This document shows, one piece after another, positions 12,283 through 61,509 of a stretch of 64,000 nucleotides of DNA. Each line of letters opens with the position of its first letter. Within the stretch, counting starts at the first letter, position 1. This stretch comes from Desulfosporosinus youngiae DSM 17734 (lineage in GTDB: Bacteria > Bacillota > Desulfitobacteriia > Desulfitobacteriales > Desulfitobacteriaceae). A model generated the notes under the pieces. That model did not search any database, had not been told where the DNA came from, and saw only the letters and a program-made list of their open reading frames with translations. Position numbers and translations under genes: made by a program. Location of the stretch: the NCBI RefSeq assembly GCF_000244895.1, contig NZ_CM001441.1, forward strand, positions 2,314,226 to 2,378,225. The letters run 5' to 3'.

Positions 12283-12369
12283 GATTCCCCTTCTTGTTCG
12301 CTGCAGTGCAAAAATTAAGCTTGTATTCTGCTTCTTCTTGTATTAAACTACGATTAATTCAATATTTAT

Positions 12370-12530: not shown

Positions 12531-12547
12531 AGTCATGAACAAAGGTA

Positions 12548-28998: not shown

Positions 28999-29076
28999 AA
29001 GTCTGAGCTGCCTACGGGAATATTAGGGGGGGTGTTTGTGTGTATTTGAGAGTACGTTTATCGTCAAATACCAGCT

Positions 29077-40857: not shown

Positions 40858-42258
40858 TATTGGTTAATCACCTCATCATAAATATGAGTAAGCTTTCTAC
40901 AAAGAAGCTATTAGTCTATGATCTAAATTCCCCGTATCTCCTATAGTTCCTTCCAAGAGTTACAAAAAATAAACGAAAGATTCGGTAAAAGTAAGAAACC
41001 TTTCTCTGGAGCACGCGTCCACGAGAACATCAGGAGAGCTTTTATGGAATTAGGAATTAGAAAGCCTTATCCCTTTCCAAGAGCACGCCGAAACACAACA
41101 AAGATAACTGATTAGCACAAAACGTCCTTTACTGTACCTAGGTATGATGTGCTGTGGAAGAATTTTTGGTATGATTCTATACGAAAAGGTAGCCCCTTTT
41201 CAATCTTTGGGGAAAAATAAGCCAGAGCGTGAAATCTTAAGGGAGTATTCCTGATTTCACACTCTTATTGTTATATAAAGCTTTTTTCCTCATGACTTCA
41301 TAGGTCTGTGTCTTAATGAAAGATTTTAGTCTTTGTTTCTCAGGATAAACATAGTTTAGCTTTTAAAGAAATTGAACATCGCTTCGTTATTTGGTAAGAT
41401 AAGGTCCAGAGACATCTGCTTCCTCCTTGAGATGGATTTGTTGTGGTAGACTTATTTTATACCACAGAAGGAAGCCGTTGGTCTCTATTTATTTTTGGTA
41501 AAAGATTGGAAGCAATTTTGCTCGTTTATAGTATACAATATCAATTTACTCTGCCCCGACCTTGAGTTTCACCAAAGTGAACGTGTTGACAAAGCTTTAT
41601 TTAATGTAGGGATCGGTATCTCATACCTTTGGCCGATGTATCTTTCGCAAAAAGGTCGTAAAATAAAGAGATTAGAATTGGTACAGTTATACCGGGTCAC
41701 AGCTTACTTTAGAGAATTTAAGGTAAACTGAATGATTAAAGGATTGATGTAAATGCTAGTGAACCTCAAACGATTGTTGAAAAAAGAGCTATGCGCAATC
41801 CTCAATGAAATTGGTGGGGATAGTTTGATTTTAGATGCCGGTGAAAGATATTGTACGGAATTGGATTGGTCAGCCACTGTCTTTCGGAAATAATGATTTC
41901 TATGTTATCCTCTATTGGTTTAATGGTACGGTTTGTTTTTTCTGTTATCGGGGCTCAGGTTTAATCAATCTTTAATGCTTCATAGCTTGCTAAGTCGCCT
42001 GGGAAACCAATCTATTTTGCTTGAATAGGGAAGCTTGACCCGCTAATGAAGTCTCTTAACCTTTGCCAGTTTAGACCAAGAGACTTCGGTAACTCGGTAA
42101 GACGCTACTAGACAATGCGTCACATATTTAGTTTGAGTTTTTTTGTTGGTTGTAACGTATTCTCGTACAATCATAGTTAATTAATACAAAGGAAAACCCA
42201 GGCGATTTAGACCTAGGTCTGGCGAAAGTCGGGTTAAATAAAAGCGCGAAGATCACTA
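40858..42258. other. 1.4-kb gene-poor region with short ORFs and inverted repeats
   Basis: No convincing full gene lies here. Possible small ORFs with ribosome sites are a 23-codon frame at 41044 (after AGGAGA) and a minus-strand 19-codon frame at 41415-41356 (after AAGGAGGAAG). A 78-codon frame at 41495-41731 and a ~46-codon frame at 41754 resemble nothing I know. Inverted repeats include GTGAAATC/GATTTCAC near 41229-41260, GTGGTA/TACCAC near 41442, GAAGTCTCTT/AAGAGACTTC at 42048-42087, and the palindrome AGACCTAGGTCT at 42209. The region may be a decayed insertion-sequence site plus a structured leader for the response regulator. Confidence 0.45.
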
Positions 42259-42284
42259 GTAAAAAAGTATGGGGGAGGAGCATC

Positions 42285-42914
42285 ATGAACGTAGTGTCAA
42301 TTGATGATTATCCATTATCAAGACAGGGCCTTATGGCAGTTCTTGGGTTAGAAAGTGAGTTTGAGTTTGCGGGGGAAGCTTCCAGTGTTAAGGAAGCACG
42401 TGAAGTTATTTTCAGATTAAAACCAGAGATTATTATTATAGACCTAAAGCTAAAGGATGAAAGCGGTTTTGATATTATCTCTGAAGTCAAAGAGTTAGAT
42501 AGTGATTGTAAAGTTGTTATATTAACTTCTTCATTAGACCCGGATGACTTTAAACGTGCGTCTGAGTTTGGTGTTGATGGGTATATTCTAAAAGACGCTA
42601 TGCCAGAGGAAATAGTTAATGCTGTTCGGCTGGTCAGTAAGGGGAGAAAGTATTACGATCCGTCTATTATGGAAATTGTAATGAAGAAAGAAAACCTGCA
42701 GCATAATGTTGAAGAGTTAACGTCTAGAGAACTAGAGGTTCTGGCAGCGTTGGGTAAAGGTTTAAGTAATAAAGATATAGCTGAGCAGCTATTCATTTCC
42801 GAGTATACCGTTAAAAAACATGTTAGCCAAATTTTCGGTAAACTTGGACTAAGCTGTCGTACACAGGCAGCGCTTTATGCAAATAAACATAAACTTGGAA
42901 GTTTATTAGTGTAA
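42285..42914 (+). CDS. NarL/FixJ-type response regulator, copy 1 of duplicated pair
   Basis: The 209-aa protein has a REC receiver and a C-terminal LuxR-type helix-turn-helix. Receiver residues are intact: acidic pair D7-D8 in SIDDYPLSRQG, phospho-acceptor D53 in IIIIDLKLKD, T81 in VILTSS and K103 in YILKDAMPEE. The helix-turn-helix is in residues 144-205 (ELTSRELEVLAALGKGLSNK, then TVKKHVSQIFGKLGL). GGGGGAGGAG precedes ATG 42285, and a terminator follows at 42931. It differs by two residues (V142I and K163R) from the protein at 46355. The kinase at 43898 is the natural partner (inference from position). Confidence 0.95.
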   Translation: MNVVSIDDYPLSRQGLMAVLGLESEFEFAGEASSVKEAREVIFRLKPEIIIIDLKLKDESGFDIISEVKELDSDCKVVILTSSLDPDDFKRASEFGVDGYILKDAMPEEIVNAVRLVSKGRKYYDPSIMEIVMKKENLQHNVEELTSRELEVLAALGKGLSNKDIAEQLFISEYTVKKHVSQIFGKLGLSCRTQAALYANKHKLGSLLV

Positions 42915-42930
42915 TCTAATATTGATGAGT

Positions 42931-42962
42931 AAAAAAGCCACTGCCTGAGCATTGGCTTTTTT
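42931..42962 (+). terminator. terminator of response regulator copy 1
   Basis: AAAAAAGCCA...TTGGCTTTTTT with an inner TGC/GCA pair forms a stem ending in a T run. The same element follows copy 2. Confidence 0.8.
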
Positions 42963-42984
42963 GTGTTATCAGATCTGGTTTTCG

Positions 42985-43299
42985 CTACAAATTTAACCAC
43001 CAATAAAGATGCAGCAGATTTGTCAATAAATAAATCACTAAGACCAGACTAAGTGAATATTTAACTAATCGTTGCGATTGTTCTCGTGCTATCCAACAAA
43101 TAACTCCCATAAATAGGGGGAGTAATAACTTAGCACAAATGACACTACTAGGGTTCATAGTGATAAGACCCCGCATTAATGGATTAGCCTCTTCAATAAC
43201 CTTTAGATTCAGCCCCCAAAAAGTTAATAGTCCATCGAGTGCATTCAAAATAAAAAGAATACCCGAAGCAAAAATAATTCTTCTTTCATACACTTTCAT
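42985..43299 (-). CDS. DUF5658-like small membrane protein
   Basis: The 104-aa protein has three predicted membrane segments: ASGILFILNALDGLLTFWGL, SVICAKLLLPLFMGVICWIA and LVLVIYLLTNLLHLYW. The first contains the LNALDGLLTFWGL and EANPLM pattern seen in DUF5658 proteins. It lies convergent to response regulator copy 1, between it and the kinase gene. Function is unknown. The ATG at 43299 follows AGGAGCAATTT on the minus strand. Confidence 0.75.
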   Translation of the reverse strand: MKVYERRIIFASGILFILNALDGLLTFWGLNLKVIEEANPLMRGLITMNPSSVICAKLLLPLFMGVICWIAREQSQRLVKYSLSLVLVIYLLTNLLHLYWWLNL

Positions 43300-43879
43300 A
43301 AATTGCTCCTAGAAAAAGATTTAACTTTATGTCTATTATCTGTTAGTTTTTCGTATTAATCGTCCTACATAGGGTTAACTAGAGATAGCCAAATAGGCGC
43401 TTTTAGCGGTATTATTGAGGTGAAATATTGAGTCTACTTTTGGGTAGAAAAGTATACTTCAGTACTATACCGCGTGAGGCCCTGATACATAGAGCCAGGT
43501 ATAATCAGAAGCTATATCCGGGTCGGAAAATGTAGATATAAGAATAATGAAACAAAAACAAAAACAAAATTTGTGATTTAAGCGAAAGAGAAAGCAGAAA
43601 ACCTCCGAAAAAAGCGAATAGAGAAAAATGCTGGTGGAAATAAATGGTTGACAAAGAAGTTTCGTAAATTATAATAGTATTATTAGAAGATTGCGAGAAA
43701 TACGTCGTGTTTAAGATGGGTGTATTTTTACACATTCAGAAGGGTTATGGGATTTTAATGGCATGTACGTGTGAGACAATGAATTGCAGTTTATAATTGG
43801 TCACGAAGAATTGCAAGGAGTCAAACGTGAAACCGGCACACTCATATTTGAGTGTGCCGTTTACGATTCGGGTCCATGA
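43300..43879. other. 580-bp intergenic region before the histidine kinase, hairpins only
   Basis: A minus-strand frame at 43505-43735 has low-complexity residues and no ribosome site, so I do not call it. Two close palindromes, AGTATACT (43451) and AGTACT (43461), and a strong hairpin at 43829-43864 are the only structures noticed. Confidence 0.45.
43829..43864 (+). terminator. strong hairpin upstream of the kinase gene
   Basis: AAACCGGCACACTCA pairs with TGAGTGTGCCGTTT around a short AT loop. It ends about 35 bases before the kinase start, so it could act as a leader attenuator or terminate earlier transcripts; the T run is weak (TTTAC). Confidence 0.5.
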
Positions 43880-43897
43880 ATGAAATGGGAAGGTAGA

Positions 43898-45226
43898 ATG
43901 GGGGTGAGAAAGATAACGAATAATGAGATCCGTATGATAGGTAATCTCTGTTGGCTTGTTCTTACAGTTAATTACCTATGGGTGGATGAATCGATTTCCT
44001 TAACTAACAAAATACTTAAGATAATCCTCATTTATGTGCTGGCAGAAATTATAACTGGTATGTTGATTGAACTTAACAACATGCGTGAACATACCTTAGC
44101 TCTTCGTCAATCAAACGTTAAATTCGAGTCGGCAGTTAATGAACTTATACAGTTTTATCATTCAATTGATTTTCAGAAAAGTTCGAATAGTACATCTGAT
44201 ATTACACGTGAATTGTGCGAGTATATAATCAAAATATCGGGAGTTGATTCGGCTTTTGTATGGCTCTATTCACAAAATGGAGATAAAAACTCAATCCTGC
44301 TAACACCTGAAAACAAACGCCAAGAAGTCGTTATTGCAAATGAATCAGGACAAGTTTGGGATAATCTTCGAAATGAAGAAGAAGCTGCATTAGTTCAATT
44401 CGGAGATACATGGTATTATTTAGCCCCAGTTAAAACGGCAACATGTTTTTATGGATTTATAGGAGTATTTTGGGATGAGGCCACTAGTGCCAAGTTCAAG
44501 GAAAGACTCCACCAAAACGTCAGACTCCTTGCGGAATGGAGTGCAATTATCTATGAGCGGGTGGACACAGATAACAGGGCAGTAAAATCGATGATTGAAG
44601 CGGAACGAAAACGCATAGGTGAGGAAATTCACGACCTTAGTTCTGGACGTCTTTTTAGCGCTGTTTGTGCCACGTCTGCTTTAGCAAAGTCCGAAAAAGT
44701 AGATATAAAAGATCGTGAACAACTTAAGCTTATCACAAGTACAGTTAATCAAGCGCTCAGCGAGCTTCGTTCAATAATCTACTCACTCAAAGTTACTTCT
44801 GATAAAGATTGGCTCCAGCAGATAAAACGCTACCTCTATGAGGTCGAAAGACTTCATGGGGTTTCCGTCTCTTTAGTAATTAGTGAAATGGATGTAGACC
44901 TTGGAGGACAACAGGCTCGAGCGTTGTATCGGATTATTCACGAAGCAGCAAATAATGCCTTGAAACATGGCCGATGTAAAAATTTAACGGTTGAATTCAT
45001 GAATATAGGAGAGGAATTACATTTAACGATTACAGATGATGGGAAAGGTTTTGAACCGATAAATAGCGCCGATGAGCACCAGGGTTTAGGGTTAATCAAT
45101 ATGACTAGTTTAGCTCATTCCATTAATGCAATCTTATCTATTGAAACTCACTTGGGGCAAGGTACCCTGATAAGAATCGTTTTGCCAAATGAAAGTGCGG
45201 GGATCACTATGTTGAAAAGCGGATAA
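43898..45226 (+). CDS. NarL-partner histidine kinase (HisKA_3), membrane-bound
   Basis: The protein of ~442 aa starts with two likely membrane segments (IGNLCWLVLTVNYLWV and IILIYVLAEIITGMLI). A central GAF-like region follows, then the HisKA_3 core with phospho-acceptor H245 in GEEIHDLSSG (H251 from the upstream ATG). The HATPase boxes are HEAANNALKH, DDGKGFEP and GLGLINMTS. I choose ATG 43898, which has GGAAGG upstream, over ATG 43880, which lacks a site. It is followed 13 bases later by an AraC-type gene and is the only kinase among four response regulators, so it may phosphorylate several of them. The signal is unknown; the GAF-like region suggests a soluble or redox ligand. Confidence 0.92.
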   Translation: MGVRKITNNEIRMIGNLCWLVLTVNYLWVDESISLTNKILKIILIYVLAEIITGMLIELNNMREHTLALRQSNVKFESAVNELIQFYHSIDFQKSSNSTSDITRELCEYIIKISGVDSAFVWLYSQNGDKNSILLTPENKRQEVVIANESGQVWDNLRNEEEAALVQFGDTWYYLAPVKTATCFYGFIGVFWDEATSAKFKERLHQNVRLLAEWSAIIYERVDTDNRAVKSMIEAERKRIGEEIHDLSSGRLFSAVCATSALAKSEKVDIKDREQLKLITSTVNQALSELRSIIYSLKVTSDKDWLQQIKRYLYEVERLHGVSVSLVISEMDVDLGGQQARALYRIIHEAANNALKHGRCKNLTVEFMNIGEELHLTITDDGKGFEPINSADEHQGLGLINMTSLAHSINAILSIETHLGQGTLIRIVLPNESAGITMLKSG

Positions 45227-45239
45227 AACTGAGGTGGTT

Positions 45240-46160
45240 ATGGCTGTGCGTCCCGAAAAAATTGAATTTGAAAATGGAATATCAGTCAAAGCATATGTCA
45301 GAGGATGTCAATATCCCTACCACTGGCATGATACGCTGGAAATTATTCAGGTGCTGAAGGGGTCAATCAATATCGATGTTGGCGATCACAACCTTACGCT
45401 GCATGAAAATGATATTGCAATCGTAAACATGGGCGAGCTTCACCGTATCACAAAAACTCATGAGGATAATAAAATTCTGTTTATACAAATTGATGGATGT
45501 TTCTGCAGCAGCGTCCTGCCGGATGACGAATATCTGTTTTTTTACTGCTGCTCCGCTTACCATGAAACGGAAGCACCACAAAAATATAAAAAACTTAGGA
45601 GATATACTGCCCTGCTGACATCGGCGTTAATGGATAATCCCCGTGGAGAGCATAAACAAAATATCGAAAGTATTCTGGTGGACATGCTGGACTATCTTAC
45701 CTATAATTTTGATTTTCTGCGCTGGGGTTATGGAACTACACCCTTTACTGAAAAGCTTGTAAATAGGCTCAAGCAAATAGCTAAATATGCAATCAGCGAT
45801 CTTGATGTACAGTTGAGGCTGAAAGAACTGGCCGTTGAGGTAGGCGTCAGCTTGCAGCATTTAAGTCATGATATAAAGGATAAATTCGGATTAACCTTTC
45901 TGGAATTATTATATTACAGTAGATGCGCATATGCCGCAAAGCTTCTGTTAAGTACGGATGCACGGATAATCGATATTGCTATGGCGTGCGGATTTTCTGA
46001 TACAAAATATTTAGTTAAATATTTTAGACAATACTTTCATACCTATCCTTCGGCGTTTCGTAAAGTGCACCGGACGGATATCCAGACCCTTTCATCCCAG
46101 GTGGAATACCGCGAATATCCTCTCTCTCATGCATTGAGCCAGAGAAATATTTTAGAATAA
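45240..46160 (+). CDS. AraC-family regulator with N-terminal cupin
   Basis: The ~306-aa protein has an N-terminal cupin-type sensor (YPYHWHDTLEIIQVLKGSIN, then HENDIAIVNMGELHRI) and a C-terminal AraC double helix-turn-helix (LRLKELAVEVGVSLQHLSHD, IDIAMACGFSDTKYLVKYF). Histidines in YHWHD may bind a ligand or metal. I prefer ATG 45240 with GAGGTGG upstream. It lies 13 bases after the kinase and is probably co-transcribed. Its target could be the flanking response regulators or the polysaccharide cluster. Near its 3' end the DNA forms a weak AT hairpin. Confidence 0.9.
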   Translation: MAVRPEKIEFENGISVKAYVRGCQYPYHWHDTLEIIQVLKGSINIDVGDHNLTLHENDIAIVNMGELHRITKTHEDNKILFIQIDGCFCSSVLPDDEYLFFYCCSAYHETEAPQKYKKLRRYTALLTSALMDNPRGEHKQNIESILVDMLDYLTYNFDFLRWGYGTTPFTEKLVNRLKQIAKYAISDLDVQLRLKELAVEVGVSLQHLSHDIKDKFGLTFLELLYYSRCAYAAKLLLSTDARIIDIAMACGFSDTKYLVKYFRQYFHTYPSAFRKVHRTDIQTLSSQVEYREYPLSHALSQRNILE

Positions 46161-46240
46161 AAATATTCTCCATCTTAATTTCGTCATGACGTGATTTCTT
46201 AAAATGAAATAAAATAAATGCAAACTAGAGGTGTTATAAA

Positions 46241-46345
46241 ATGGCTGAACAATTAGACGTTTGGAATACTTTGTGGCAGTGGATAGACTATGCGTCCAAA
46301 TGTAGATTGTTCATCGGAATGTATATTGTAAAAAACGTATGGTGA
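46241..46345 (+). CDS. possible 34-codon ORF coupled to response regulator copy 2
   Basis: ATG 46241 follows AGAGGTG with suitable spacing and encodes a 34-aa peptide rich in W and hydrophobic residues (VWNTLWQWIDYASK). The stop at 46345 is inside the ribosome site of the response regulator at 46355, so translation could be coupled. It is not present upstream of copy 1. It could be a leader peptide or chance; the peptide is not recognised. Confidence 0.3.
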   Translation: MAEQLDVWNTLWQWIDYASKCRLFIGMYIVKNVW

Positions 46346-46354
46346 GGAAGCATT

Positions 46355-46984
46355 ATGAACGTAGTGTCAATTGATGATTATCCATTATCAAGACAGGGTC
46401 TTATGGCAGTTCTTGGGTTAGAAAGTGAGTTTGAGTTTGCGGGGGAAGCTTCCAGTGTTAAGGAAGCACGTGAAGTTATTTTCAGATTAAAACCAGAGAT
46501 TATTATTATAGACCTAAAGCTAAAGGATGAGAGCGGTTTTGATATTATCTCTGAAGTCAAAGAGTTAGATAGTGATTGCAAAGTTGTTATATTAACTTCT
46601 TCATTAGATCCGGATGACTTTAAACGTGCGTCTGAGTTTGGTGTTGATGGGTATATTCTAAAAGACGCTATGCCAGAGGAAATAGTTAATGCTGTTCGGC
46701 TGGTCAGTAAGGGGAGAAAGTATTACGATCCGTCTATTATGGAAATTGTAATGAAGAAAGAAAACCTGCAGCATAATATTGAAGAGTTAACGTCTAGGGA
46801 ACTAGAGGTTCTGGCAGCGTTGGGTAAAGGTTTAAGTAATAGAGACATAGCTGAGCAGCTATTCATTTCCGAATATACCGTTAAAAAACACGTTAGCCAA
46901 ATTTTCGGTAAACTTGGACTAAGCTGTCGTACACAGGCAGCGCTTTATGCAAATAAACATAAACTTGGAAGTTTATTAGTGTAA
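46355..46984 (+). CDS. NarL/FixJ-type response regulator, copy 2 of duplicated pair
   Basis: The 209-aa product is almost the same as that at 42285, differing only at residues 142 (I for V) and 163 (R for K), the second at the start of the DNA-binding domain. All receiver residues (D7, D8, D53, T81, K103) are kept. Both copies should bind the same DNA. GTGAGGAAG gives the ribosome site. The upstream regions differ from copy 1, so the two copies may be expressed under different conditions. It is the first of three response regulators in a row on this strand. Confidence 0.95.
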   Translation: MNVVSIDDYPLSRQGLMAVLGLESEFEFAGEASSVKEAREVIFRLKPEIIIIDLKLKDESGFDIISEVKELDSDCKVVILTSSLDPDDFKRASEFGVDGYILKDAMPEEIVNAVRLVSKGRKYYDPSIMEIVMKKENLQHNIEELTSRELEVLAALGKGLSNRDIAEQLFISEYTVKKHVSQIFGKLGLSCRTQAALYANKHKLGSLLV

Positions 46985-47000
46985 TCTGATATTGATGAGT

Positions 47001-47032
47001 AAAAAAGCCACTGCCTGAGCATTGGCTTTTTT
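47001..47032 (+). terminator. terminator of response regulator copy 2
   Basis: Same hairpin as at 42931-42962, with a T run, before the next response regulator. Confidence 0.8.
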
Positions 47033-47305
47033 GTGTTATCCAATTATTCAAGGCATTGGGCATTGTAATGGTACTACTAAAGTATAGTTTCTGTTCTAAT
47101 AACTGGCGGAGATAATCTACGTCTGTATACCGAAAACAGTACCTAATTGGTCATTTGAAGTTATGCAAACGTATGACGATTAAAAGACAGAAATAATTAA
47201 TAATAGACGTAGAGTCAAATTTCAATTCTTATGCTTTCGTAATTTAAGGTGGAACGTGCGAGATTGTTAATAAAGGCAAATAGTCCTTAGGAGGGACGAT
47301 GAATT

Positions 47306-47917
47306 GTGAGGTTTGTATGTGTTGATAACTTTCCATTATCGAGACAGGGACTTATAAGAATTTTGAAGTCAGAAGACGGATTAGAATTTGTAGGTGAGGC
47401 TGCTTCAGTTAACGAAGCAAGGGATGTCATTGTAAAGCTATGTCCAGATATAGTGATTTTCGATTTGAGGCTTAAGGACGAATCCGGTTTAGATATCTTA
47501 ATGGAAATGAGGAAATTAAATACTAGCTGTAAGTATATGGTTTTGACATCGTCACATGAGCCTGAGGACTTTATACGAGCTAATGAGTTAGGCATAGATG
47601 GATATATTCTAAAAGATGCAATGCCAGAGGAAATTCTAAACGCTGTTCGTTCAGTGGCGCGAGGAAGAAAATACTATGACCCGGAAGTTATTGAATGGGT
47701 TCTTAAAATACAAAATCAGTATGTTGAGCAACTAACCTCAAGAGAGCAGGAGGTTCTAACGGCAATCGGAGCAGGTTTAAGTAATAAAGATATTTCAGAA
47801 CGGTTATTCATTACGGAATATACGGTTAGGAAGCATGTGAGCCGGATTTTAGCTAAACTTGGTCTCCATCGTAGAACTCAGGCTGCACTTTATGCAAGGC
47901 CGCATAAGAATAGTTAA
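47306..47917 (+). CDS. NarL-type response regulator with altered acidic pocket
   Basis: The 203-aa paralogue keeps D7, phospho-acceptor D53 (IVIFDLRLKD), T81 and K103 (YILKDAMPEE), but the second acidic residue is N8 (CVDNFPLSRQG). The loop from DxFPLSRQG is otherwise shared with its neighbours. The helix-turn-helix is at LTSREQEVLTAIGAGLSNKD and TVRKHVSRILAKLGL. GTG 47306 is the start; GGAGGG lies about ten bases upstream. Metal binding and phosphorylation may be weaker than in the duplicated pair. No terminator was spotted directly after it. Confidence 0.93.
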   Translation: MRFVCVDNFPLSRQGLIRILKSEDGLEFVGEAASVNEARDVIVKLCPDIVIFDLRLKDESGLDILMEMRKLNTSCKYMVLTSSHEPEDFIRANELGIDGYILKDAMPEEILNAVRSVARGRKYYDPEVIEWVLKIQNQYVEQLTSREQEVLTAIGAGLSNKDISERLFITEYTVRKHVSRILAKLGLHRRTQAALYARPHKNS

Positions 47918-48274
47918 GCTAATTTGCAAAGTTACAATATTCTTTGTGCCATGAAGGGTACTAATTGATGAGTGATATTAATTCAATTAGCACGCGTAGT
48001 TCCGTATATAGGGGCCCTTATTGTTTGATTGGGATGATATTGAAGTGATAAATGGTACTTAAGTGTAATCCATATACCTCATTATGATGTTAAGAATACT
48101 CCTTTTGTATAAGACGTATCTATGCTTTCGAGTAGTTAAAAGGAGTTCGTTTGAGTGAGGAAAAAGGTTAAAAAATAAACAATAATTAACACAAAGGTAT
48201 CGTATAAAAGGGACCCGTAACTATGTCGATTAGATTATCTTAGAGGATACTTGTTTCATGGGAGGGTTAGTTTT
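47918..48274. other. 357-bp intergenic region before the fourth response regulator
   Basis: No gene seen. It holds an inverted repeat CTAATTGA/TCAATTAG at 47961-47990 and AATTAACACAAAGG at 48184, which matches AATTAATACAAAGG at 42179 at 13 of 14 bases, each about 80-95 bases before a response-regulator start. Confidence 0.4.
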
Positions 48275-48880
48275 TTGACGGTTATAGCTATAGATGGTTT
48301 TCCATTATCAAGACAAGGATTAATGGCAATCTTGGGGCTGGAAGAAGGGTTCGAATTCGTAGGTCAAGCTTCTTCTGTGAAGGAAGCTTTAGATCTGATT
48401 AGACGATCGGATCCGGATATCATCATTTTGGATTTAAAACTTAAAGATGAATGCGGCTTAGAAATCTTGTTAGAGATCAAAAGGCTAGGCTCAAGATGTA
48501 AATGTGTAGTGTTAACCGCTTCATTCGATCCGGAGGATTTTCGACGTGCTAGTGAACTGGGCATTGACGGATATATTTTAAAGGATGCAATGCCCGAGGA
48601 AATTATTTCTGCTCTTCGCTTAGTAAGTAAAGGTCGGAAGTATTACGATCCTGCGATAATGGACCTCGTTGTGAATCAATCGAAAATGAATGATTCGAAT
48701 ATGTTAACGCCAAGAGAACGAGAGGTACTTAGAGCACTCGGAGTTGGATTAACGAATAAGGACATCGCTCAGCAATTATTTATTTCTGAGAGTACAGTCA
48801 AAAAACATGTTAGCCAGGTGCTGGCTAAACTCGGTTTTAGTCGGCGTACGCAAGCAGCTCTTTATGCAAAAACCCATTAA
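48275..48880 (+). CDS. NarL-type response regulator with altered acidic pocket, fourth paralogue
   Basis: The ~201-aa protein begins MTVIAIDGFPLSRQGLMAIL: D7 is present but residue 8 is G. Phospho-acceptor D (IIILDLKLKD), the T/S position as VLTAS, and the lysine in YILKDAMPEE are conserved. The helix-turn-helix is LTPREREVLRALGVGLTNKD and TVKKHVSQVLAKLGF. I choose TTG 48275, eight bases after GGGAGGG; an earlier TTG at 48251 has no site. It is the last regulator before the polysaccharide cluster and is separated from it by about 40 bases, so it is the best positional candidate for controlling that cluster. Confidence 0.93.
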   Translation: MTVIAIDGFPLSRQGLMAILGLEEGFEFVGQASSVKEALDLIRRSDPDIIILDLKLKDECGLEILLEIKRLGSRCKCVVLTASFDPEDFRRASELGIDGYILKDAMPEEIISALRLVSKGRKYYDPAIMDLVVNQSKMNDSNMLTPREREVLRALGVGLTNKDIAQQLFISESTVKKHVSQVLAKLGFSRRTQAALYAKTH

Positions 48881-48919
48881 ACCGGAATAGTTACTTAGAT
48901 TATAAAGGAAGGTCCCACA

Positions 48920-50791
48920 ATGAAATTTAGCCGGAGTTCCTTAGTTTTAATCTTACTTGATGCGGCCCTTATTAACCTGGCTGCAATAGGTAGTTTTTAT
49001 CTACGCTTTGAAGGTAATATCCCGAGGGAATATTACTGGACTTATTATCATACCGCTTGGGCAGGTACGCTTATATATCTATTAATCTTTTCATTCTTTG
49101 GCTTGTATAATCGGCTTTGGCAGTATGCAAGTATAAGCGAACTCCTTTCAGTTATATTTGCGGTTTTTGTTGGAACAAGTAGTGTGGTACTGGTGGTATA
49201 TTTCTTAGCGCCAATGCGGTATCCAAATACAGTAGCAGTATTATTTTGGCTGACAACCACTTTTATGATAAGTGGGTCACGTTTAATCTTGAGGATAATA
49301 GATGATGCTGTTTTAACTATTCCGATTCCAGGTATACCTAAGAGAGTTCTGATCATAGGTGCAGGAGATGCGGGGGCATTGGCTATTCGGGAACTTAAAA
49401 ATAGCAATTATAGAGAAGGGTATCCCATTGGGATCATCGATGATTCTCTGCAAAAACAGAAACTTAAACTAATGGGTATTCCTATTCTGGGAACGAGGAA
49501 GGATATCCCACACGTTGTTAAATCACATAAGGTAGAAGAAGTAATTATAGCAATGCCTTCAGCTCCAGGTGCTGTTATAAGAGATATTGCAAAGATTTGC
49601 GAAAAAAGTGGTGCCGTTATCAAGATTGTGCCTGGTATTTATAACTTTTTTAGCGGGCAGATCGATACTTTGCAAATTCGTCAGGTGGAGATTGAAGATT
49701 TGTTAGGAAGAGATCAACTTAACCTGGATATCGATGAAGTAGCAGGTTATCTGGCAGGAGAAACAGTCATGGTTACGGGGGCCGGCGGATCCATTGGATC
49801 AGAGCTATGTCGGCAAATATGCAGGTTTAACCCTGAAAAACTCATTCTTGTTGGGCGAGGGGAGAATAGTATTTTTGATATCGAACAAGAATTGGGTTCG
49901 GAATTTTCAGATATAAATGTAATAACGGAAATTTTAGATGTTAAAGATCGTGAAAAAGTTGAACTGGTTTTCTGGAAATATAGACCCGGCGTAGTCTTTC
50001 ATGCGGCTGCCCATAAGCATGTCCCGCTGATGGAACGAAATCCAGAGGAAGCTTTGAAGAACAATATTTTAGGTACCTATAATGTTGCAGAAATCTCGGA
50101 TTTGACCAGAGTAAAAACGTTTGTACTTATTTCTACAGATAAAGCCATCAATCCAACGAGTGTTATGGGGGCTACAAAACGAGTGGCAGAGATGATTATT
50201 CAAAGCTTAGATCTGCAATCTCAGACACGTTTTGTTGCTGTGCGATTTGGTAATGTCTTGGGAAGCCGAGGAAGTGTCATACCTACGTTTAAGAAGCAGA
50301 TTGCCAAAGGCGGCCCAGTGACAGTGACTCATCCAGAGATGGTTCGTTACTTTATGACGATTCCGGAGGCGGCTCAACTCGTTATTCAAGCTGGAGCAAT
50401 GGCCGAAGGCGGGGAGATCTTCATTCTTGATATGGGAAAGCCAGTTAGAATTATTGATTTGGCAAGGGATCTAATTAGGTTGTCAGGGCTTGAGGCGGAT
50501 GTGGATATTAGGATTGAATTCACAGGGATACGTCCTGGAGAGAAGTTGTACGAAGAGTTACTCACAGCAGAGGAGGGGAGGACAAGTACGAAGCATCAAA
50601 GGATTTTTGTGGCAAAGCCGAGCGCGGTAGATATTGCGGGAGTTGAATTATTAGTTCAGTTGATTAGGGAGAGGGGTTCGTTTTTAACGAGGGAGGAGAT
50701 TGAGCAGGAGTTGAGTGGGGTTGTGTCTGGGTTTCAACAGCTTCAAGGGAAAAAACACAATAAACAAAACTCAATTTTCAATATAGTTTAA
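48920..50791 (+). CDS. UDP-N-acetylglucosamine 4,6-dehydratase-type protein (PglF/CapD family), membrane-bound
   Basis: The 623-aa protein has four N-terminal membrane segments (LVLILLDAALINLAAIGSFY first), then a Rossmann domain (VLIIGAGDAGALAIRELKNS) and a second, catalytic short-chain dehydrogenase domain with VMVTGAGGSIGSELCRQICR. The active-site block ISTDKAINPTSVMGATKRVA has M in place of the Y of classical YxxxK enzymes, as in PglF-type 4,6-dehydratases. It would make a UDP-4-keto-6-deoxy-HexNAc, the substrate for the aminotransferase next door. The start follows AAGGAAGG. It opens the glycan cluster. Confidence 0.92.
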   Translation: MKFSRSSLVLILLDAALINLAAIGSFYLRFEGNIPREYYWTYYHTAWAGTLIYLLIFSFFGLYNRLWQYASISELLSVIFAVFVGTSSVVLVVYFLAPMRYPNTVAVLFWLTTTFMISGSRLILRIIDDAVLTIPIPGIPKRVLIIGAGDAGALAIRELKNSNYREGYPIGIIDDSLQKQKLKLMGIPILGTRKDIPHVVKSHKVEEVIIAMPSAPGAVIRDIAKICEKSGAVIKIVPGIYNFFSGQIDTLQIRQVEIEDLLGRDQLNLDIDEVAGYLAGETVMVTGAGGSIGSELCRQICRFNPEKLILVGRGENSIFDIEQELGSEFSDINVITEILDVKDREKVELVFWKYRPGVVFHAAAHKHVPLMERNPEEALKNNILGTYNVAEISDLTRVKTFVLISTDKAINPTSVMGATKRVAEMIIQSLDLQSQTRFVAVRFGNVLGSRGSVIPTFKKQIAKGGPVTVTHPEMVRYFMTIPEAAQLVIQAGAMAEGGEIFILDMGKPVRIIDLARDLIRLSGLEADVDIRIEFTGIRPGEKLYEELLTAEEGRTSTKHQRIFVAKPSAVDIAGVELLVQLIRERGSFLTREEIEQELSGVVSGFQQLQGKKHNKQNSIFNIV

Positions 50792-50824
50792 TTAACAAAT
50801 TTAAAGGGAGGAAGGGATTTTTAG

Positions 50825-51982
50825 ATGATTCCGTTGTCAAGACCGGATATCACAGAGAGAGAAAAGCAAGCAGTACTAGCTGTCTTAGATTCAAATTTCT
50901 TGAGCTTAGGGCCTAAATTAAGAGAATTTGAGGAGAAAATGGCGGCTTATTCAGGAACGGAGTATGCCATAGCATGCAATAGTGGGACTAGTGGTTTACA
51001 TATGATTATAGCTGGGTTAGGAATAAAAGATGGCGATGAAGTTATTACTACACCATTCAGTTTTATTTCCTCAAGTAATTGCATGTTGTTTGAACGTGCG
51101 AAACCAGTGTTTATCGATATTGATGAAAATACCTATAACATGGATACATCCCAAATCGAATCAAAGATCACGGAGAAAACAAAAGCGATTTTGCCGGTCC
51201 ATATTTTTGGACAACCTGTGAACATGACTGACATCAGACAGATATCTCTAAAATATGGCTTGCATATTATCGAAGATTCCTGTGAGGCGATTGGGGCTGA
51301 GTGGAATGGTAAGAAAGCTGGAACAATGTCTGAGGCCGGTGTCTTTGCCTTTTATCCGAATAAGCAAATGACTACAGGTGAGGGTGGAATCGTTGTTACA
51401 AACAACAAAAACCTTGCGAAGTTATGTTATAGTCTACGGAATCAAGGACGTGGAATTGATACTCAGTGGCTTAATCATGTTCGGTTAGGCTACAACTATC
51501 GAATGAATGATATTAGTTGCGCACTTGGTATTGCACAATTAGAGCGTATTGATGAGATTCTCGCTGCTCGTCAACGCGTTGCAGACGCATATATGGAAAG
51601 ATTTAAAGAGGTTGAAGGGGTTATTCTTCCGACAGTTGACGAGAGAGTAAAAATGAGTTGGTTTGTGTTCGTAATACGATTTGAATCATGGATTGATCGG
51701 AATGTCGTTATGGAAACACTCTTAGGTCGGGGAATTGGATGCAGGCCTTATTTTACGGAGATTCATCTTCAGCCTTTTTATCGGGAAATGTTTGGCTATA
51801 AGGAGGGGGATTTTCCGATTACAGAACGCGTTGCGAGCGGCACTTTAGCTATTCCATTCTTTAATAGTATTACCGAGGAACAAGTCGATATCGTCGTGGA
51901 TGAGGTAAAGCGAGCTATTCGATATGCATCTATTGCGGATCGTGAAACGCGGCTGAAGAAATTGTGGGAAGATGTGATCTAG
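50825..51982 (+). CDS. DegT/DnrJ/EryC1/StrS family sugar aminotransferase (PglE-like)
   Basis: The 385-aa PLP enzyme belongs to the sugar aminotransferase family. MIPLSRPDITEREKQAVLAV is the usual start, AYSGTEYAIACNSGTSGLHM is the N-terminal cofactor region, and the Schiff-base lysine is in FAFYPNKQMTTGEGGIV. By position it should aminate the 4-keto sugar from the previous enzyme. The start follows AGGGAGGAAGG. The next two genes match the downstream steps. Confidence 0.92.
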   Translation: MIPLSRPDITEREKQAVLAVLDSNFLSLGPKLREFEEKMAAYSGTEYAIACNSGTSGLHMIIAGLGIKDGDEVITTPFSFISSSNCMLFERAKPVFIDIDENTYNMDTSQIESKITEKTKAILPVHIFGQPVNMTDIRQISLKYGLHIIEDSCEAIGAEWNGKKAGTMSEAGVFAFYPNKQMTTGEGGIVVTNNKNLAKLCYSLRNQGRGIDTQWLNHVRLGYNYRMNDISCALGIAQLERIDEILAARQRVADAYMERFKEVEGVILPTVDERVKMSWFVFVIRFESWIDRNVVMETLLGRGIGCRPYFTEIHLQPFYREMFGYKEGDFPITERVASGTLAIPFFNSITEEQVDIVVDEVKRAIRYASIADRETRLKKLWEDVI

Positions 51983-51997
51983 GAGTGTAGCGACGCT

Positions 51998-52618
51998 ATG
52001 AAATACATTAAGATTAAGCGGGTTATGGACTTTATCTTTTCGTTGATTTTGTTGATTGTAATATCTCCCATCATGCTCTGTGCAGCTGTTGCTATAAAAT
52101 GTGGGGGGCAAGGTCCAGTGCTCTTTAAGCAAGAGCGTCCAGGTAAAGATGGAGTTATCTTTACAATCTATAAGTTTCGGACTATGCGTTTGGAAACGGA
52201 GAAAGATGGTCACCCCCTATCCGATATGGAACGTATGACTCGAGTCGGTATGATGTTAAGAAAGCTCAGTATCGACGAACTACCTCAGTTATTAAATATA
52301 TTAAGAGGAAATATGAGTTTCATTGGTCCTCGACCTTTGTTAATTCAATATCTTGAGCGTTATACTCCGGAACAAATGCGCCGTCATGATGTAACACCGG
52401 GAATATCTGGTTGGGCCCAGATCAATGGGCGCAATGGAATAGATTGGGAAACGCGGTTTGAATATGACTTGTGGTATGTAAAAAACATTTCGTTTTTGAC
52501 TGATTTGAAGATTTTCCTAGGCACATTGGCGGTGATTCTGGGCACACGAGGTGTAAATCAATCTAAGAGTCAGACGATGGAAGAGTTTGGCGTGGCAACA
52601 AAAAGTCTGAAAGGCTAG
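51998..52618 (+). CDS. undecaprenyl-phosphate sugar-1-phosphate transferase (PglC-like)
   Basis: The 206-aa enzyme is a small monotopic phosphoglycosyl transferase. The N-terminal re-entrant helix is RVMDFIFSLILLIVISPIML, followed by FKQERPGKDGVIFTIYKFRT. The LSIDELPQLLNILRGNMSFI stretch has the catalytic D-E pair, with GPRP after it. In PglC relatives it moves a phospho-sugar (diacetamido sugar) from UDP to undecaprenyl phosphate, the first membrane step of glycan building. It starts 15 bases after the aminotransferase. Substrate is inferred from the neighbours. Confidence 0.92.
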   Translation: MKYIKIKRVMDFIFSLILLIVISPIMLCAAVAIKCGGQGPVLFKQERPGKDGVIFTIYKFRTMRLETEKDGHPLSDMERMTRVGMMLRKLSIDELPQLLNILRGNMSFIGPRPLLIQYLERYTPEQMRRHDVTPGISGWAQINGRNGIDWETRFEYDLWYVKNISFLTDLKIFLGTLAVILGTRGVNQSKSQTMEEFGVATKSLKG

Positions 52619-52628
52619 TGAGTGTACC

Positions 52629-53276
52629 TTGGGCAAACTTCTTATTTTGGGTGCTGGTGGACATGGCAAGGTAGTTGCAGAGTGTGCCTTGTCATTAGGA
52701 ATATATACGACAATTGCATTTTTAGATGATGATGAAAAAGTTATTGAGGAATCCATCCTAGGGTCATGTCCAGTTATTGGAACATTTAGTGATGCTGGTA
52801 GTTTTGTTCATAAGTTTTCTGAAGCATTTGTGGCTCTTGGGAACAATCGGTCAAGAGTTAGGCTTATAACCTATCTTAGGGAGATAGGTTATAAGATACC
52901 CTGTTTAATTCACCCTGCTGCGTATGTTAGCAAATCTGCTCATATTGAAATTGGGACGGTCATAATGGCGGGAGCTGTTGTTAATGCAGATGCACATATT
53001 GGGGTGGGTGGAATCATTAACACGGGTGCGTCTGTTGATCACGACTGCGTGCTCGGTGTAGGTGTTCACTTATCACCTGGAGCGCGGTTAGGTGGGACTG
53101 TGACTGTTGGGGACTATACTTGGATTTGTATGGGCGCTAATGTTGTGAATAATGTTCATGTAGGGAAAGGAAGCGTTGCTGCAGCAGGGGCTACTGTGAT
53201 TAGAGATGTTGGTGATAATTTGCTTGTTGCGAAGGTGCCTGCTAGGGAATTGAAAAAGACCGACCTAAAGAGATAG
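52629..53276 (+). CDS. sugar N/O-acetyltransferase, PglD/NeuD-like
   Basis: The 215-aa protein has an N-terminal nucleotide-sugar binding fold (LLILGAGGHGKVVAECALSL) and a C-terminal left-handed beta-helix (IGTVIMAGAVVNADAHIGVG, then NTGASVDHDCVLGVGVHLSP). The catalytic histidine is in ASVDHDC. It should acetylate the amino group made by the aminotransferase, giving a UDP-diacetamido sugar. The start codon is TTG 52629 with GAGTGTACC upstream, a poor ribosome site, so translation may depend on coupling with the gene before it. Two decayed copies of its tail region lie downstream. Confidence 0.9.
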   Translation: MGKLLILGAGGHGKVVAECALSLGIYTTIAFLDDDEKVIEESILGSCPVIGTFSDAGSFVHKFSEAFVALGNNRSRVRLITYLREIGYKIPCLIHPAAYVSKSAHIEIGTVIMAGAVVNADAHIGVGGIINTGASVDHDCVLGVGVHLSPGARLGGTVTVGDYTWICMGANVVNNVHVGKGSVAAAGATVIRDVGDNLLVAKVPARELKKTDLKR

Positions 53277-53359
53277 TTGATCAGCACAATTGGGAATACG
53301 AGGATACAACAGTTATCCGACAGTTAACAATCTTAAGGGTTAAATATTTTAGCATAATA

Positions 53360-53472
53360 CACCCTACTGTAAGGCTGTCAAAATATGTTGAGATTGGGGT
53401 GCGTTCCATAATATGTGTTGATGAGAATACGGTTGTTGTAGGGTTCCTGCAAAGGCATTAAAAAATGACTAA
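53360..53472 (+). pseudogene. decayed acetyltransferase relic A (PglD-like)
   Basis: From 53360 the frame reads HPTVRLSKYVEIGVRSII and then ENTVVVG. After a one-base shift it continues VPAKALKND to a stop at 53470-53472. The first part matches HPAAYVSKSAHIEIG of the intact neighbour, and VVVG...VPAKAL is the usual end of such proteins. The central beta-helix coils are missing. Confidence 0.6.
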
Positions 53473-53558
53473 GTTTAAGGAGTAGATCATCGGTTTACTG
53501 AGGTTTTTTCTTGCATGTATAACTTGTCATCGGGGGCGTAGTTAGGAGGGACAAGCTA

Positions 53559-53621
53559 GGCAGCGTGATTATAAATGCTAGCGCTAATTTGCTTGTAGGG
53601 AGGATGCCTGTGAGGGAATAA
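53559..53621 (+). pseudogene. decayed acetyltransferase relic B (C-terminal tail only)
   Basis: The frame reads GSVIINASANLLVGRMPVRE then a stop. It resembles the end of the intact gene (GSVAAAGATV...DNLLVAKVPARE), with NLLV and P-x-RE conserved. Only about 20 residues remain. Confidence 0.5.
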
Positions 53622-53802
53622 TTGAGTTAGAGCTTTATATTCACTTGAATTATCGTTGAATGTCACAGTGGTTGTTAGCCTAGGATTTTAACATAGGGTT
53701 TAGCTAATGTAGCAAAGCAGCAAAAATAATTTGAGATGTCTATGCAGAGCTGTATAGGTCCCAACGGAGAAGATAAGACAAAGATGTTTAGGAGAGAAGA
53801 TA

Positions 53803-54969
53803 ATGGGTCTACTATTAAAAACTCTTTTTTACTCAAGCGGCTTTATTATAGTGTGGGCAATGGTAGGATACCCATTATCACTGAAGCTGATTGATAGATT
53901 ATATAAAGGGGAGCAACTGAAAAAAGATTATTCAATTCAGCCGACCGTAACGGTTATGGTTGTAGCCCATAATGAAGAGAAAGTTATTCTGGAAAAGATG
54001 AACAACATTCTAGAACTAGATTACCCGCAGGAAAAAATTGAGTTTTTGGTTTCTTCCGATAATAGCACTGATAGGACAAATGAAATTGTAACGAAGTTTA
54101 TAAAAGAACATAACGAAAGGAGAATCAGATTATTTGAAGTTATATTACGTAAAGGTAAAACAAATGCTCAGAATGAAGCCCAAAAGACAGTTACTACCGA
54201 GTATCTGGTTATGACAGACGCTAACGCAATGATGGACAAGAATTCAATTAAGGAATTAATGGCAGCATTCACTTCAAATAATATCGCCTATGTGACAGGG
54301 AGATTATCAATTGTTAATCAATATGTAAATGAGGTCAGCATTTCAGAGTCGAGGTATTGGGATAACGATCTTGCAGCCCGGGAAATTGAAGGAAGAATAC
54401 AGACCATCACAGCAGGAAATGGTGCAATCTATGCATGCAGGACAAGTGATTATTATGACTTTAATCCAATTCAGTGCCATGACAGTGCTATGCCGTTGTT
54501 TTACGCGTTACAAGGTAAACGAGCGATTTGTAACCATGATGCTATAGCCTATGAAAAAGCCGGTGAGGTAATCAAGGATGAATTTAACCGAAAGGTCAGA
54601 ATGAGTCGAATCATACTTAAACACATATTGCCGGATATAAACATCCTTAATATTTTTAAGTATAGATGGTTTTCGTATTTTTACTTCGGCCACAGAACAT
54701 GTAGGTATCTATTATGGCTTTCCCACTTGATAGTATTCGTGACGAATGTATTCTTAATTAAAGAGTCCTGGTTATATGCTGTAACTTTTACCGCACAAGT
54801 ACTGTTCTACCTTTTAGGGATTATTAGAGGGGTTACAAAAGCCAATAATAAACAGCTGACCATGATTTACTACTACTGTATGACGATAGCAGCCCAATGG
54901 GTAGGTGTGTATAACACTTTGACTGAAAGGACTAAGCCATTCTGGGAAAAAGCAGAAAGTACTAGATAG
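53803..54969 (+). CDS. family 2 glycosyltransferase, membrane-associated
   Basis: The 388-aa protein has a GT2 domain: VTVMVVAHNEEKVILEKMNN at the start, LVSSDNSTDRTNEIV, and the metal-binding VMTDANAMMD (D-x-N variant of D-x-D). The C-terminal 100 residues have two or three membrane segments, and a single segment may lie at the N-terminus. It should add a sugar to the lipid-linked glycan. The ATG at 53803 follows AGGAGAGAAGATA. A stretch of about 110 bases separates it from the next gene. Confidence 0.9.
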   Translation: MGLLLKTLFYSSGFIIVWAMVGYPLSLKLIDRLYKGEQLKKDYSIQPTVTVMVVAHNEEKVILEKMNNILELDYPQEKIEFLVSSDNSTDRTNEIVTKFIKEHNERRIRLFEVILRKGKTNAQNEAQKTVTTEYLVMTDANAMMDKNSIKELMAAFTSNNIAYVTGRLSIVNQYVNEVSISESRYWDNDLAAREIEGRIQTITAGNGAIYACRTSDYYDFNPIQCHDSAMPLFYALQGKRAICNHDAIAYEKAGEVIKDEFNRKVRMSRIILKHILPDINILNIFKYRWFSYFYFGHRTCRYLLWLSHLIVFVTNVFLIKESWLYAVTFTAQVLFYLLGIIRGVTKANNKQLTMIYYYCMTIAAQWVGVYNTLTERTKPFWEKAESTR

Positions 54970-55080
54970 ATAAACTAAAGTGTGAACAGTAGAATTGCAA
55001 AAGAATATTGCGTGAAATCTATACTGAATTATTAAAATGATTTACACAATATTACAATAATATTTTGGTGAGGTGGTTTT

Positions 55081-56436
55081 TTGAATAACTCCTTGCTTAG
55101 GATCTACCTTAACTCTCCTTTCATTTTAAAAAGAGTTTTTGCAAATATCGAAGCAGTAAGAAGAGATCGCTATCGTAGATTTGAGGATTCTAGTAATGGT
55201 TCAGCTGAAGTTGATTATGGTAAAAGTTTGGTCAATGAAAAATTCAATTTTGATATTAATAAAATCAACACTTTACTTAAACAGGCATCATGTAATGTTA
55301 AATACTATAGCTTTCTAAAGGAGCATGAAGTTAACTCTGTTGAAGACTTTGAAAAAATACCTTTATTAACCAAGAGAATAATTTCATTAAATCGAGAAGT
55401 GCTAATATCAAAAAAGATTAGAAATAAAAAAGAACTTTGGAATGGTTCATCAAGTGGATCAACCGGAACCCCATTAAAGTATTACAGAGATAAAAACAGC
55501 ATTTCTAGTGAACGATTGAGTTATGATAGTTACTATAAATATTGCGGATGTGATTTAAACAAAAAGCGTGTCCGAATTTCTGGTGTCAAAGTAGCTCACT
55601 TCGATCGAAAAAAGCCACCATATTGGTTGTATATTGATAAATATAAGCAACTTCAATGCAGCACCTACCATATCTCTGAAAAAAGTTATACGGATTATTT
55701 ACTAGCGTTTAATAGAGTAAATGCAGATTTTGCTACAGGATTTCCATCGGGGTGGTTCGCATTAGCTGAATTGATGGTAGAACATAAGGTAACGTTTGAT
55801 AAATTTAAAGCTATTGTGACCGATAGTGAGGGCCTATCTATGGAACAGCAGAGAACGATAATGAAAGCGTTTAATTGTCCAGTCTATCAAACCTACGGAC
55901 TAGGCGAAGTGGGTATGTGTGCTGTTCAGTGCCAAAAAGGTAATTTCCATATATTGTCGACCCATTATGTGGAAATTATTAATAGTAATGGTGAAAAAGT
56001 TATTGACGGGGAAGATGGAGAGATTGTTGTTACGGATCTTAATAGCGCTAATTATCCATTTATTAGATATGCTACTGGGGATTTAGGCATTATGCATCAT
56101 AATGATTGTGGTTGTGGAATAAAAACCCCGTACTTATCTAAGATTATTGGCAGAGTGGAGGATTATATTCTTACTAAGAATGGTAGGAAAATCACGAGGT
56201 TGACGATGATTGTCAAACCAGCTGTCGGAATTAAAGAAAGCCAGATAATTCAAGTTTCGAGAGATGAAATTGTTATAAATGTGGTTCCGGATTTCAACTT
56301 CGTCGAAGAGTCTATGAGGCTTGTTCTAGAAACGGCTAAAGAGTTTGTGGGGGATATGATAGTAACTTGGAAAACTGTAGAAAGACTTGAAAGAATGCCT
56401 AGCGGAAAATTGAAGTTCTTGATAAAGAGGATTTGA
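55081..56436 (+). CDS. CapK/PaaK-like adenylation-domain protein in glycan cluster
   Basis: The 451-aa protein resembles phenylacetate-CoA ligase-like CapK proteins found in capsule and O-antigen clusters. LWNGSSSGSTGTPLKYYRDK is the phosphate-binding (P) loop, VYQTYGLGEVGMCAVQC is the Y-G-x-x-E motif, and TGDLGIM with IIGRVEDYI is the adenylation C-terminal hinge. TTG 55081 follows GGTGAGGTGG. The role in glycan synthesis is not established; it may activate an acyl or amino acid for decorating a sugar. The lack of a carrier protein gene nearby leaves the acceptor unknown. Confidence 0.85.
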   Translation: MNNSLLRIYLNSPFILKRVFANIEAVRRDRYRRFEDSSNGSAEVDYGKSLVNEKFNFDINKINTLLKQASCNVKYYSFLKEHEVNSVEDFEKIPLLTKRIISLNREVLISKKIRNKKELWNGSSSGSTGTPLKYYRDKNSISSERLSYDSYYKYCGCDLNKKRVRISGVKVAHFDRKKPPYWLYIDKYKQLQCSTYHISEKSYTDYLLAFNRVNADFATGFPSGWFALAELMVEHKVTFDKFKAIVTDSEGLSMEQQRTIMKAFNCPVYQTYGLGEVGMCAVQCQKGNFHILSTHYVEIINSNGEKVIDGEDGEIVVTDLNSANYPFIRYATGDLGIMHHNDCGCGIKTPYLSKIIGRVEDYILTKNGRKITRLTMIVKPAVGIKESQIIQVSRDEIVINVVPDFNFVEESMRLVLETAKEFVGDMIVTWKTVERLERMPSGKLKFLIKRI

Positions 56437-56490
56437 AACTAAAATTTATTTCCTGAATTGATGCTTATACTTTAAGAATTTGGAGGAATT

Positions 56491-57540: not shown

Positions 57541-57557
57541 GATATGGAGAATTTTAA

Positions 57558-59982: not shown

Positions 59983-60044
59983 GAATATAAAAGGACTAGA
60001 GAATAGATTGAATGCTACCGAATCTGCAGTAGGAGTAGAATGGA

Positions 60045-61496: not shown

Positions 61497-61509
61497 AAGG
61501 AGTACAGCA

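Follow-up and report, generated by a model that had tools for sequence, protein, structure and literature searches.

Why does a genome carry two nearly identical response-regulator genes on either side of a histidine kinase gene, and are the two subject to the same control? The question is raised by a locus in a 64,000-nucleotide stretch of the Desulfosporosinus youngiae DSM 17734 genome (contig NZ_CM001441.1, positions 2,314,226 to 2,378,225), which we call the window and whose numbering is used throughout. In this locus, response regulator copy A (42285..42914, plus strand) and copy B (46355..46984, plus strand) enclose a kinase gene, a gene for an AraC-family regulator and a predicted riboswitch for cyclic di-GMP (c-di-GMP); B lies downstream of the riboswitch and A lies outside it. 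The explanation that we favor, with a probability somewhat above even, is that the locus is a riboswitch-led kinase-response regulator system in which A is an older duplicate outside the riboswitch that was homogenized with B by gene conversion.

The two copies and the riboswitch between them

Both copies contain the Pfam domains Response_reg and GerE, and their proteins are 99% identical. The sequences align in register at an offset of 4070, and between 42285-42970 and 46355-47040 there were 11 differences in 686 positions, all of them transitions. Ten fall within the 630 coding bases (eight synonymous changes, V142I, and K163R), and the eleventh lies after the stop codon. The initial annotation of this DNA had described such a pair, with about ten transitions and two changed residues, as a unit of approximately 712 bp containing the gene, its ribosome site and a terminator between unlike flanks. 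The near identity of gene and terminator was borne out, as was the unlikeness of the flanks; the ribosome-site stretch, however, proved to lie outside the unit. On the start-codon side, the likeness weakens (6 of the 24 bases at 42261-42284 differ, and 42259-42260 differ too), and on the other side it stops past 42970/47040, just 3' of the common terminator.

The terminator hairpin of copy A (42931..42962, plus strand), which is preceded by an A-run and followed by a T-run, is possibly bidirectional; the fold has an energy of -15.8 kcal/mol in both copies. A consensus scan did not flag the hairpin of copy A, probably because of its loop. Each copy also weakly matches the BTnc231 RNA, with 31.2 and 30.3 bits where the cut-off is 80.4; these matches were dismissed as a chance likeness of the terminator.

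PF00072 and PF00196 scored above their gathering thresholds in A, B and two downstream paralogs, C and D, giving each protein a receiver followed by a GerE helix-turn-helix of the NarL/FixJ (LuxR) type. The phosphorylation-site residues, DDDTK, are complete in A and B. The best solved relative was VraR (130.9 bits). None of the 25 NCBIfam models listed, from 76 that match A, reached its cut-off for a named subfamily; the best was MadR, with 157 of 300 bits.

At the rate set by eight synonymous changes in 135 sites, drift of both copies should have produced 29 replacement changes and drift of one copy 14.6 (P = 6e-5 for the latter), whereas two were seen. Given this shortage, purifying selection seems to act on both copies, and neither appears to be decaying. 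The two changes are conservative, and it is plausible that A and B bind the same DNA target. Purifying selection on both copies fits separate control, and it fits equally well a dosage role, in which the copies are kept only for more regulator and the position of the riboswitch is incidental, a reading compatible with either of the histories considered below. We regard the dosage role as doubtful: A has no kinase of its own, lies outside the riboswitch and differs from B in its upstream region, features that dosage does not call for even if they do not exclude it.

The riboswitch aptamer, of class c-di-GMP-II (RF01786), was detected at 43763..43847 on the plus strand, between the copies and ahead of the kinase, with 59.2 bits against a gathering cut-off of 53.5 (E value, 1.3e-10) and over the full length of the model (1-84). 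It was the sole match in its own genome at E <= 0.001, with 105 of 428 first-look candidates scored. The same number of candidates was scored in each genome, a depth at which weak matches may be missed; this search gave at least 20 matches in 13 of 29 genomes of the genus, 15 of them over the cut-off, in nine genomes, and no match in 14 control genomes. Four of the 20 matches precede this kinase or response regulator, namely those in the genomes G000, G017 (Desulfosporosinus sp. BG; 47.2 bits, before the kinase), G009 (37.6 bits, before the response regulator) and G026 (28.8 bits, before the kinase), the last three being below the cut-off. In G011 the riboswitch is a relic whose central hairpin is gone, and the genome-wide search missed it. 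A separate c-di-GMP-II match of 46 bits, also below the cut-off, lies in G004 (C53:8501-8584; L100) directly before genes that resemble polysaccharide genes by eye; G004 is without this response-regulator family at E <= 1e-55.

A match to the sigma-70 promoter consensus in all 12 bases (TTGACA-16-TATAAT; 43648..43675, plus strand), the only such match in 40800-49100, lies 87 bases before the aptamer. Across these 8.3 kb, the scan returned 25 sigma-70 matches against a shuffle mean of 26.9, so their number is not above chance. A terminator-like hairpin (43835..43858, plus strand) overlaps the 3' strand of the aptamer helix P1; it is an inverted repeat, appears in both the minimum-free-energy and the centroid folds, and is conserved in G017 and G011. 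In the fold, the 3' strand of P1 is drawn into a strong hairpin, which is what an on-switch would show.

The initial annotation had correctly placed the kinase and AraC genes between the copies, omitting a DUF5658 gene, the riboswitch, C, and D, and had suggested that the copies are separately controlled. The anatomy supports this suggestion, since the riboswitch and the 12-base promoter match lie upstream of the kinase and B and not upstream of A.

Ancestry of the copies

The regulator family was found at E <= 1e-55 in 6 of 29 genomes of the genus and at E <= 1e-60 in 7 of 45 genomes of the taxonomic family. The order in G017 is riboswitch, kinase, response regulator, C and D, with a four-base overlap of the kinase and response-regulator genes; in G011 it is riboswitch relic, kinase and response regulator, the latter two again overlapping. 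On these gene orders, B is judged to occupy the ancestral place, between the kinase and C, and its downstream region matches that in G017. The kinase gene of the window (43880..45226, plus strand; HisKA_3 and HATPase_c) encodes a protein with 61% identity to its ortholog in G017 and 58% to that in G011.

The AraC-family gene (45234..46160, plus strand; cupin and HTH_18) is missing at this junction in both G017 and G011. No homolog was found at E <= 1e-20 in 28 other genomes of the genus, and one paralog of 49% identity occurs within the same genome. Since Desulfosporosinus sp. BG has the order riboswitch-kinase-response regulator-C-D without it, we read the AraC segment as a lineage-specific insertion between kinase and response regulator that replaced the last codons of the kinase.

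Upstream of A, a stretch of approximately 49 bp (42236..42284, plus strand) appears to be a relic of the 3' end of a histidine kinase gene with its ribosome site. It aligned to the kinase 3' end of G011 with a score reached in 0 of 500 shuffles and to that of G017 with a score reached in 1 of 500, and 19 of 23 bases are identical to the kinase end of the window itself. Upstream of B, about the final 24 bases of such a relic are all that is kept (46331..46354, plus strand); the alignment was again unmatched in 500 shuffles for G011 and weak for G017 (34/500). A putative open frame of 34 codons (46241..46345, plus strand) ends in this relic; apart from its own copies, it gave only matches of E >= 3.2 among the loci compared, and no Pfam match. 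Because the relic sits upstream of A, A most likely descends from an intact kinase-response regulator junction that existed before the AraC insertion.

The same relic bears on whether the duplication is real. An assembly artefact is hardly credible: the locus lies in a single contig of 5,660,978 bases, the copies differ from each other at 11 positions and in their flanks, and the relic upstream of A fits an evolutionary duplicate. As to how the duplicate arose, a tandem duplication that retained a riboswitch upstream of A was ruled out, as none was found there. The duplicate may have arisen either by tandem duplication with later loss of the upstream kinase or by the copying of a short segment, two routes that look the same here; a tblastn search of 40858-42330 with three kinases for a remnant gave nothing better than E 0.32.

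An orphan response regulator in G017 (contig C23; L023:3152-3806) also has a kinase-end relic upstream, and its alignments to the kinase ends of G017 and G011 and to the relic of A were each unequaled in 500 shuffles. An orphan duplicate may thus predate the split, which would suit a later conversion of A, or such copying may have occurred twice.

Had a single event produced A and B, the relic that both have upstream should be about as diverged as the synonymous sites. Upstream, 6 of 24 positions differ. The proportion is lower in the unit, at 11 of 686 (Fisher test, P = 7e-6), and among synonymous sites, at 8 of 135 (P = 0.008); when the 4 differences in 23 bases between the relic of A and the kinase end are added, 10 of 47 stand against 8 of 135 (P = 0.008). 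Because the upstream relic is more diverged than both the unit and the synonymous sites, we lean toward homogenization of the unit by gene conversion after an older duplication, ahead of a plain duplication. A would then be an older copy of a segment comprising the kinase 3' end, the response regulator and the terminator, placed upstream beyond the riboswitch and the DUF5658 gene; its coding sequence and terminator would have been made like those of B by conversion while the upstream regions diverged. The initial annotation had offered recent duplication and conversion side by side, and it is the second that the divergence pattern favors, short of proof.

In a plain recent duplication, one copying event of approximately 735 bp would account for the pair, with all differences arising since and no conversion. 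This history has a real but clearly less than even chance. In its favor, A and B are separated by a synonymous divergence (dS) of just 0.062, whereas the values to the G017 and G011 genes are 0.84-1.4, and the protein tree joins the two copies as sisters with a support of 100/100. A plain duplication accounts poorly for a common upstream stretch that is several-fold more diverged than the synonymous sites and for the orphan copy with a kinase-end relic in G017. By majority of three outgroup genes, the derived base is in B at six of the ten coding differences and in A at three, with one undecided; where all three outgroup genes concur, two derived bases are in B and two in A.

Several points count against conversion. 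The test rests on 24-47 bp of one genome and was framed after the sequence had been seen, and its result is sensitive to the alignment and to the boundary chosen for the relic (22-23 bases contain 4 differences, 25 contain 6). With a doubled neutral rate, three of four counts lose significance (P = 0.14, 0.21, and 0.30), the ungapped count of 10 in 26 remaining significant (P = 0.0015). Besides the genome of the window, only G017 has two copies of this kind. The initial annotation had called for a comparison of the copies in related genomes; in G017 the pair is 77% alike and not homogenized, as a plain duplication would have it, while the kinase-end relic of the orphan copy suits conversion. 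That orphan copy has other neighbors and no A-like terminator, and may not be orthologous to A. Among the titles and opening lines of abstracts that came up in the literature, there was no close precedent for gene conversion between paralogous regulators. The anatomy, the orthologs, the relic, the pattern of divergence and the apparent constraint on both copies can be read from the sequence itself.

The initial annotation had also raised the possibility that recombination between the copies deletes the kinase and AraC genes and so serves as an on/off switch. In general, direct repeats of 686 bp at a spacing of 4070 bp suffice in length for homologous recombination. Such a deletion would, however, remove the DUF5658 gene and the riboswitch together with the kinase and AraC genes and would be irreversible, and no scar was recognized in the family loci read from six genomes of the genus, this species being represented by one genome. 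We rejected this reading as one-way and unsupported, and consider it very improbable.

The region upstream of A was surveyed as well. A 1.4-kb gap without clear genes (40858-42284) showed discontinuous similarity, in pieces of 26-181 bases, to dispersed sites in nine other genomes of the genus, including a stretch of 26-27 bases present in three of them, when up to 13 first-look candidates per genome were scored. The gap is preceded by a gene for a MalT-like TPR/GerE regulator (38254-40857), in which the GC content at third codon positions is 54%, compared with 30-39% in eight other genes measured. Farther upstream, a transposase gene (35142-36940) is apparently broken across several frames, the last of which has a weak DDE_Tnp_1 match.

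Paralogs, promoter blocks and the proposed circuit

The paralogs C (47306..47917) and D (48251..48880), both on the plus strand, follow B. Protein identities involving C and D are 62-67%, those to A being 64% for C and 66% for D. The second residue of the acidic pair in receiver domains has a role in holding a metal ion. The pair D7-D8 has changed to D-N in C (phosphorylation-site residues DNDTK) and to D-G in D (DGDTK), and the G017 orthologs of both keep D-D. Because the next gene begins 39 bases after D and no terminator was found between them in our scan, D is probably cotranscribed with the polysaccharide cluster (48920..62949, plus strand), which was assigned using NCBIfam and Pfam. The cluster contains genes for a CapD/PglF-like dehydratase, a DegT aminotransferase, a sugar transferase, a NeuD-like acetyltransferase, glycosyltransferases (two of which, at 56491 and 57558, were named by eye only), an O-antigen ligase, a flippase and a UDP-sugar dehydrogenase.

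A block of approximately 150 bp is common to the regions upstream of C (47072..47220, plus strand), of D (48053..48200, plus strand) and of the DUF5658 gene (43319..43467, minus strand). It also occurs upstream of C and D in G017 and, in G011, between the response regulator and sugar-nucleotide genes. The promoter-like block ahead of the DUF5658 gene is 65% identical over 150 columns to the region upstream of C and contains the dyad TACTnnAGTA, a similar dyad being present upstream of C and of D; the block upstream of D shares 77% identity with G017 (167 bp) and 73% with G011 (134 bp). When the D block was searched elsewhere, G017 and G011 were recovered together with nine weak matches of 27-48 bases, one of them in the same genome. 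A matrix of the dyad motif ranked the three blocks first in the window (22.2, 18.7, and 17.8, with the next site at 12.2), as expected, since the same sites had helped to build it. We infer that the shared blocks are sites where these regulators act. The DUF5658 gene itself (42985..43299, minus strand; PF18902) lies between A and the riboswitch, and a fragment matching residues 51-100 of its product sits upstream of the kinase in G011.

In the circuit that we propose, the kinase transcript would open with the c-di-GMP-II riboswitch; the AraC gene, B and the relatives C and D come after the kinase gene, and D leads into the polysaccharide cluster. At high c-di-GMP, transcription would continue beyond the hairpin that overlaps P1 and reach the kinase, AraC and B genes, and the phosphorylated regulator would act at the blocks ahead of C, of D and the polysaccharide genes, and of the DUF5658 gene. 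A would supply the same regulator free of riboswitch control. The ligand response, phosphotransfer, DNA targets and expression of A are inferred. The most interesting part is that the copies lie on opposite sides of a predicted c-di-GMP switch; the duplicate thereby becomes a testable circuit, in which the same transcription factor occurs with and without predicted c-di-GMP control beside its likely polysaccharide targets. A more tentative extension, which we consider unlikely, is that of one regulator in two circuits: conversion would keep the riboswitch-gated and ungated genes alike while C and D drift to altered phosphorylation sites. If true, this would be a concerted-evolution design for the dual wiring of a polysaccharide regulator.

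The arrangement was also followed in the wider family. A scan of genome contigs yielded 54 loci of the response-regulator family, and our tallies use 51 of them (L028-L078), L079-L081, with 28-35% identity, having been left out; some contigs end early. A kinase lies directly upstream of the response regulator in 32 of the 51 loci, and SipW/TasA-like or polysaccharide genes are nearby in 17, a raw count given without a background rate. An Rfam search of 30 loci found a same-strand upstream c-di-GMP riboswitch in ten: eight of class II, one of class I and one of class I-GGC. Two extra genes precede the kinase in three of these ten riboswitch loci. In L031, L038 and L054, genes for proteins of 257-295 and 384-385 amino acids stand, in a repeated order, between a c-di-GMP-II riboswitch and the kinase-response regulator pair. 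Relatives of the kinase-response regulator pair thus occur behind class II or class I c-di-GMP riboswitches in several Bacillota lineages.

Other observations speak against the proposed circuit. The remaining 20 of the 30 loci searched with Rfam gave no c-di-GMP riboswitch. The U-run after the post-aptamer hairpin is short and weak (GUUUA), so that termination is unsure, and B could be transcribed from promoter-like sites within the AraC insert, such as the one at 45679-45707, which matches in 11 of 12 bases. No strong sigma-70 match was seen immediately before A, and the likeness of its upstream region to the D promoter is limited to 15 bases (E 0.64). A also has no TACTnnAGTA-like dyad upstream, and motif sampling that included its upstream region gave no convincing placement of A in the shared promoter class.

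Two cobalamin riboswitches lie elsewhere in the window, at 12360-12534 (102.8 bits) and 28815-29008 (107.8 bits); the second precedes a set of genes that resemble an ABC transporter by eye.

Relation to known systems

In domain architecture, A is the same over its full length as VraR and NarL. The closest locus that we compared is that of Desulfosporosinus sp. BG (L022/L029), which shares the order riboswitch-kinase-response regulator-C-D, orthologous genes and the promoter blocks, and which likewise has an orphan response regulator with a kinase-end relic. It differs in that it contains no AraC insert, its second response regulator is on another contig with 77% nucleotide identity, and C-D there do not lead into a polysaccharide cluster. 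A literature search, mostly at the level of titles, returned no prior description of this arrangement or of the wider family.

The known system that the locus most recalls is CmrRST of Clostridioides difficile, in which an operon encoding a histidine kinase and two response regulators is preceded on its 5' side by the c-di-GMP riboswitch Cdi-2-2, which, according to the excerpt of the report, raises the expression of the operon (PMC6837544). Genes behind type II riboswitches in C. difficile are described as induced at high c-di-GMP in excerpts of another report, one figure legend of which words the effect as negative regulation (PMC3649979). Here as there, a c-di-GMP riboswitch stands upstream of a kinase and response regulators. 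CmrR and CmrT are OmpR-family regulators in the excerpt of a further report (PMC12548384), whereas those of the present locus are of the NarL/LuxR type with a GerE domain. CmrRST is also associated with an invertible DNA element, whereas none was seen here: no inverted pair of at least 30 bases occurs in 40000-50000, recombinase genes not having been searched for. Among inverted pairs of at least 12 bases, only the riboswitch hairpin was found in 43000-43950, and 45100-46400 contains, inside the AraC gene and B, four palindromes and a single pair of 12 bases spaced 736 apart. Finally, the present locus has a duplicate regulator outside the riboswitch, and the excerpt on CmrRST mentions none (PMC6837544). 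The arrangement is a variant of a known one, the two-component system under riboswitch control as exemplified by CmrRST, and differs from it by an additional copy of the regulator outside the switch.

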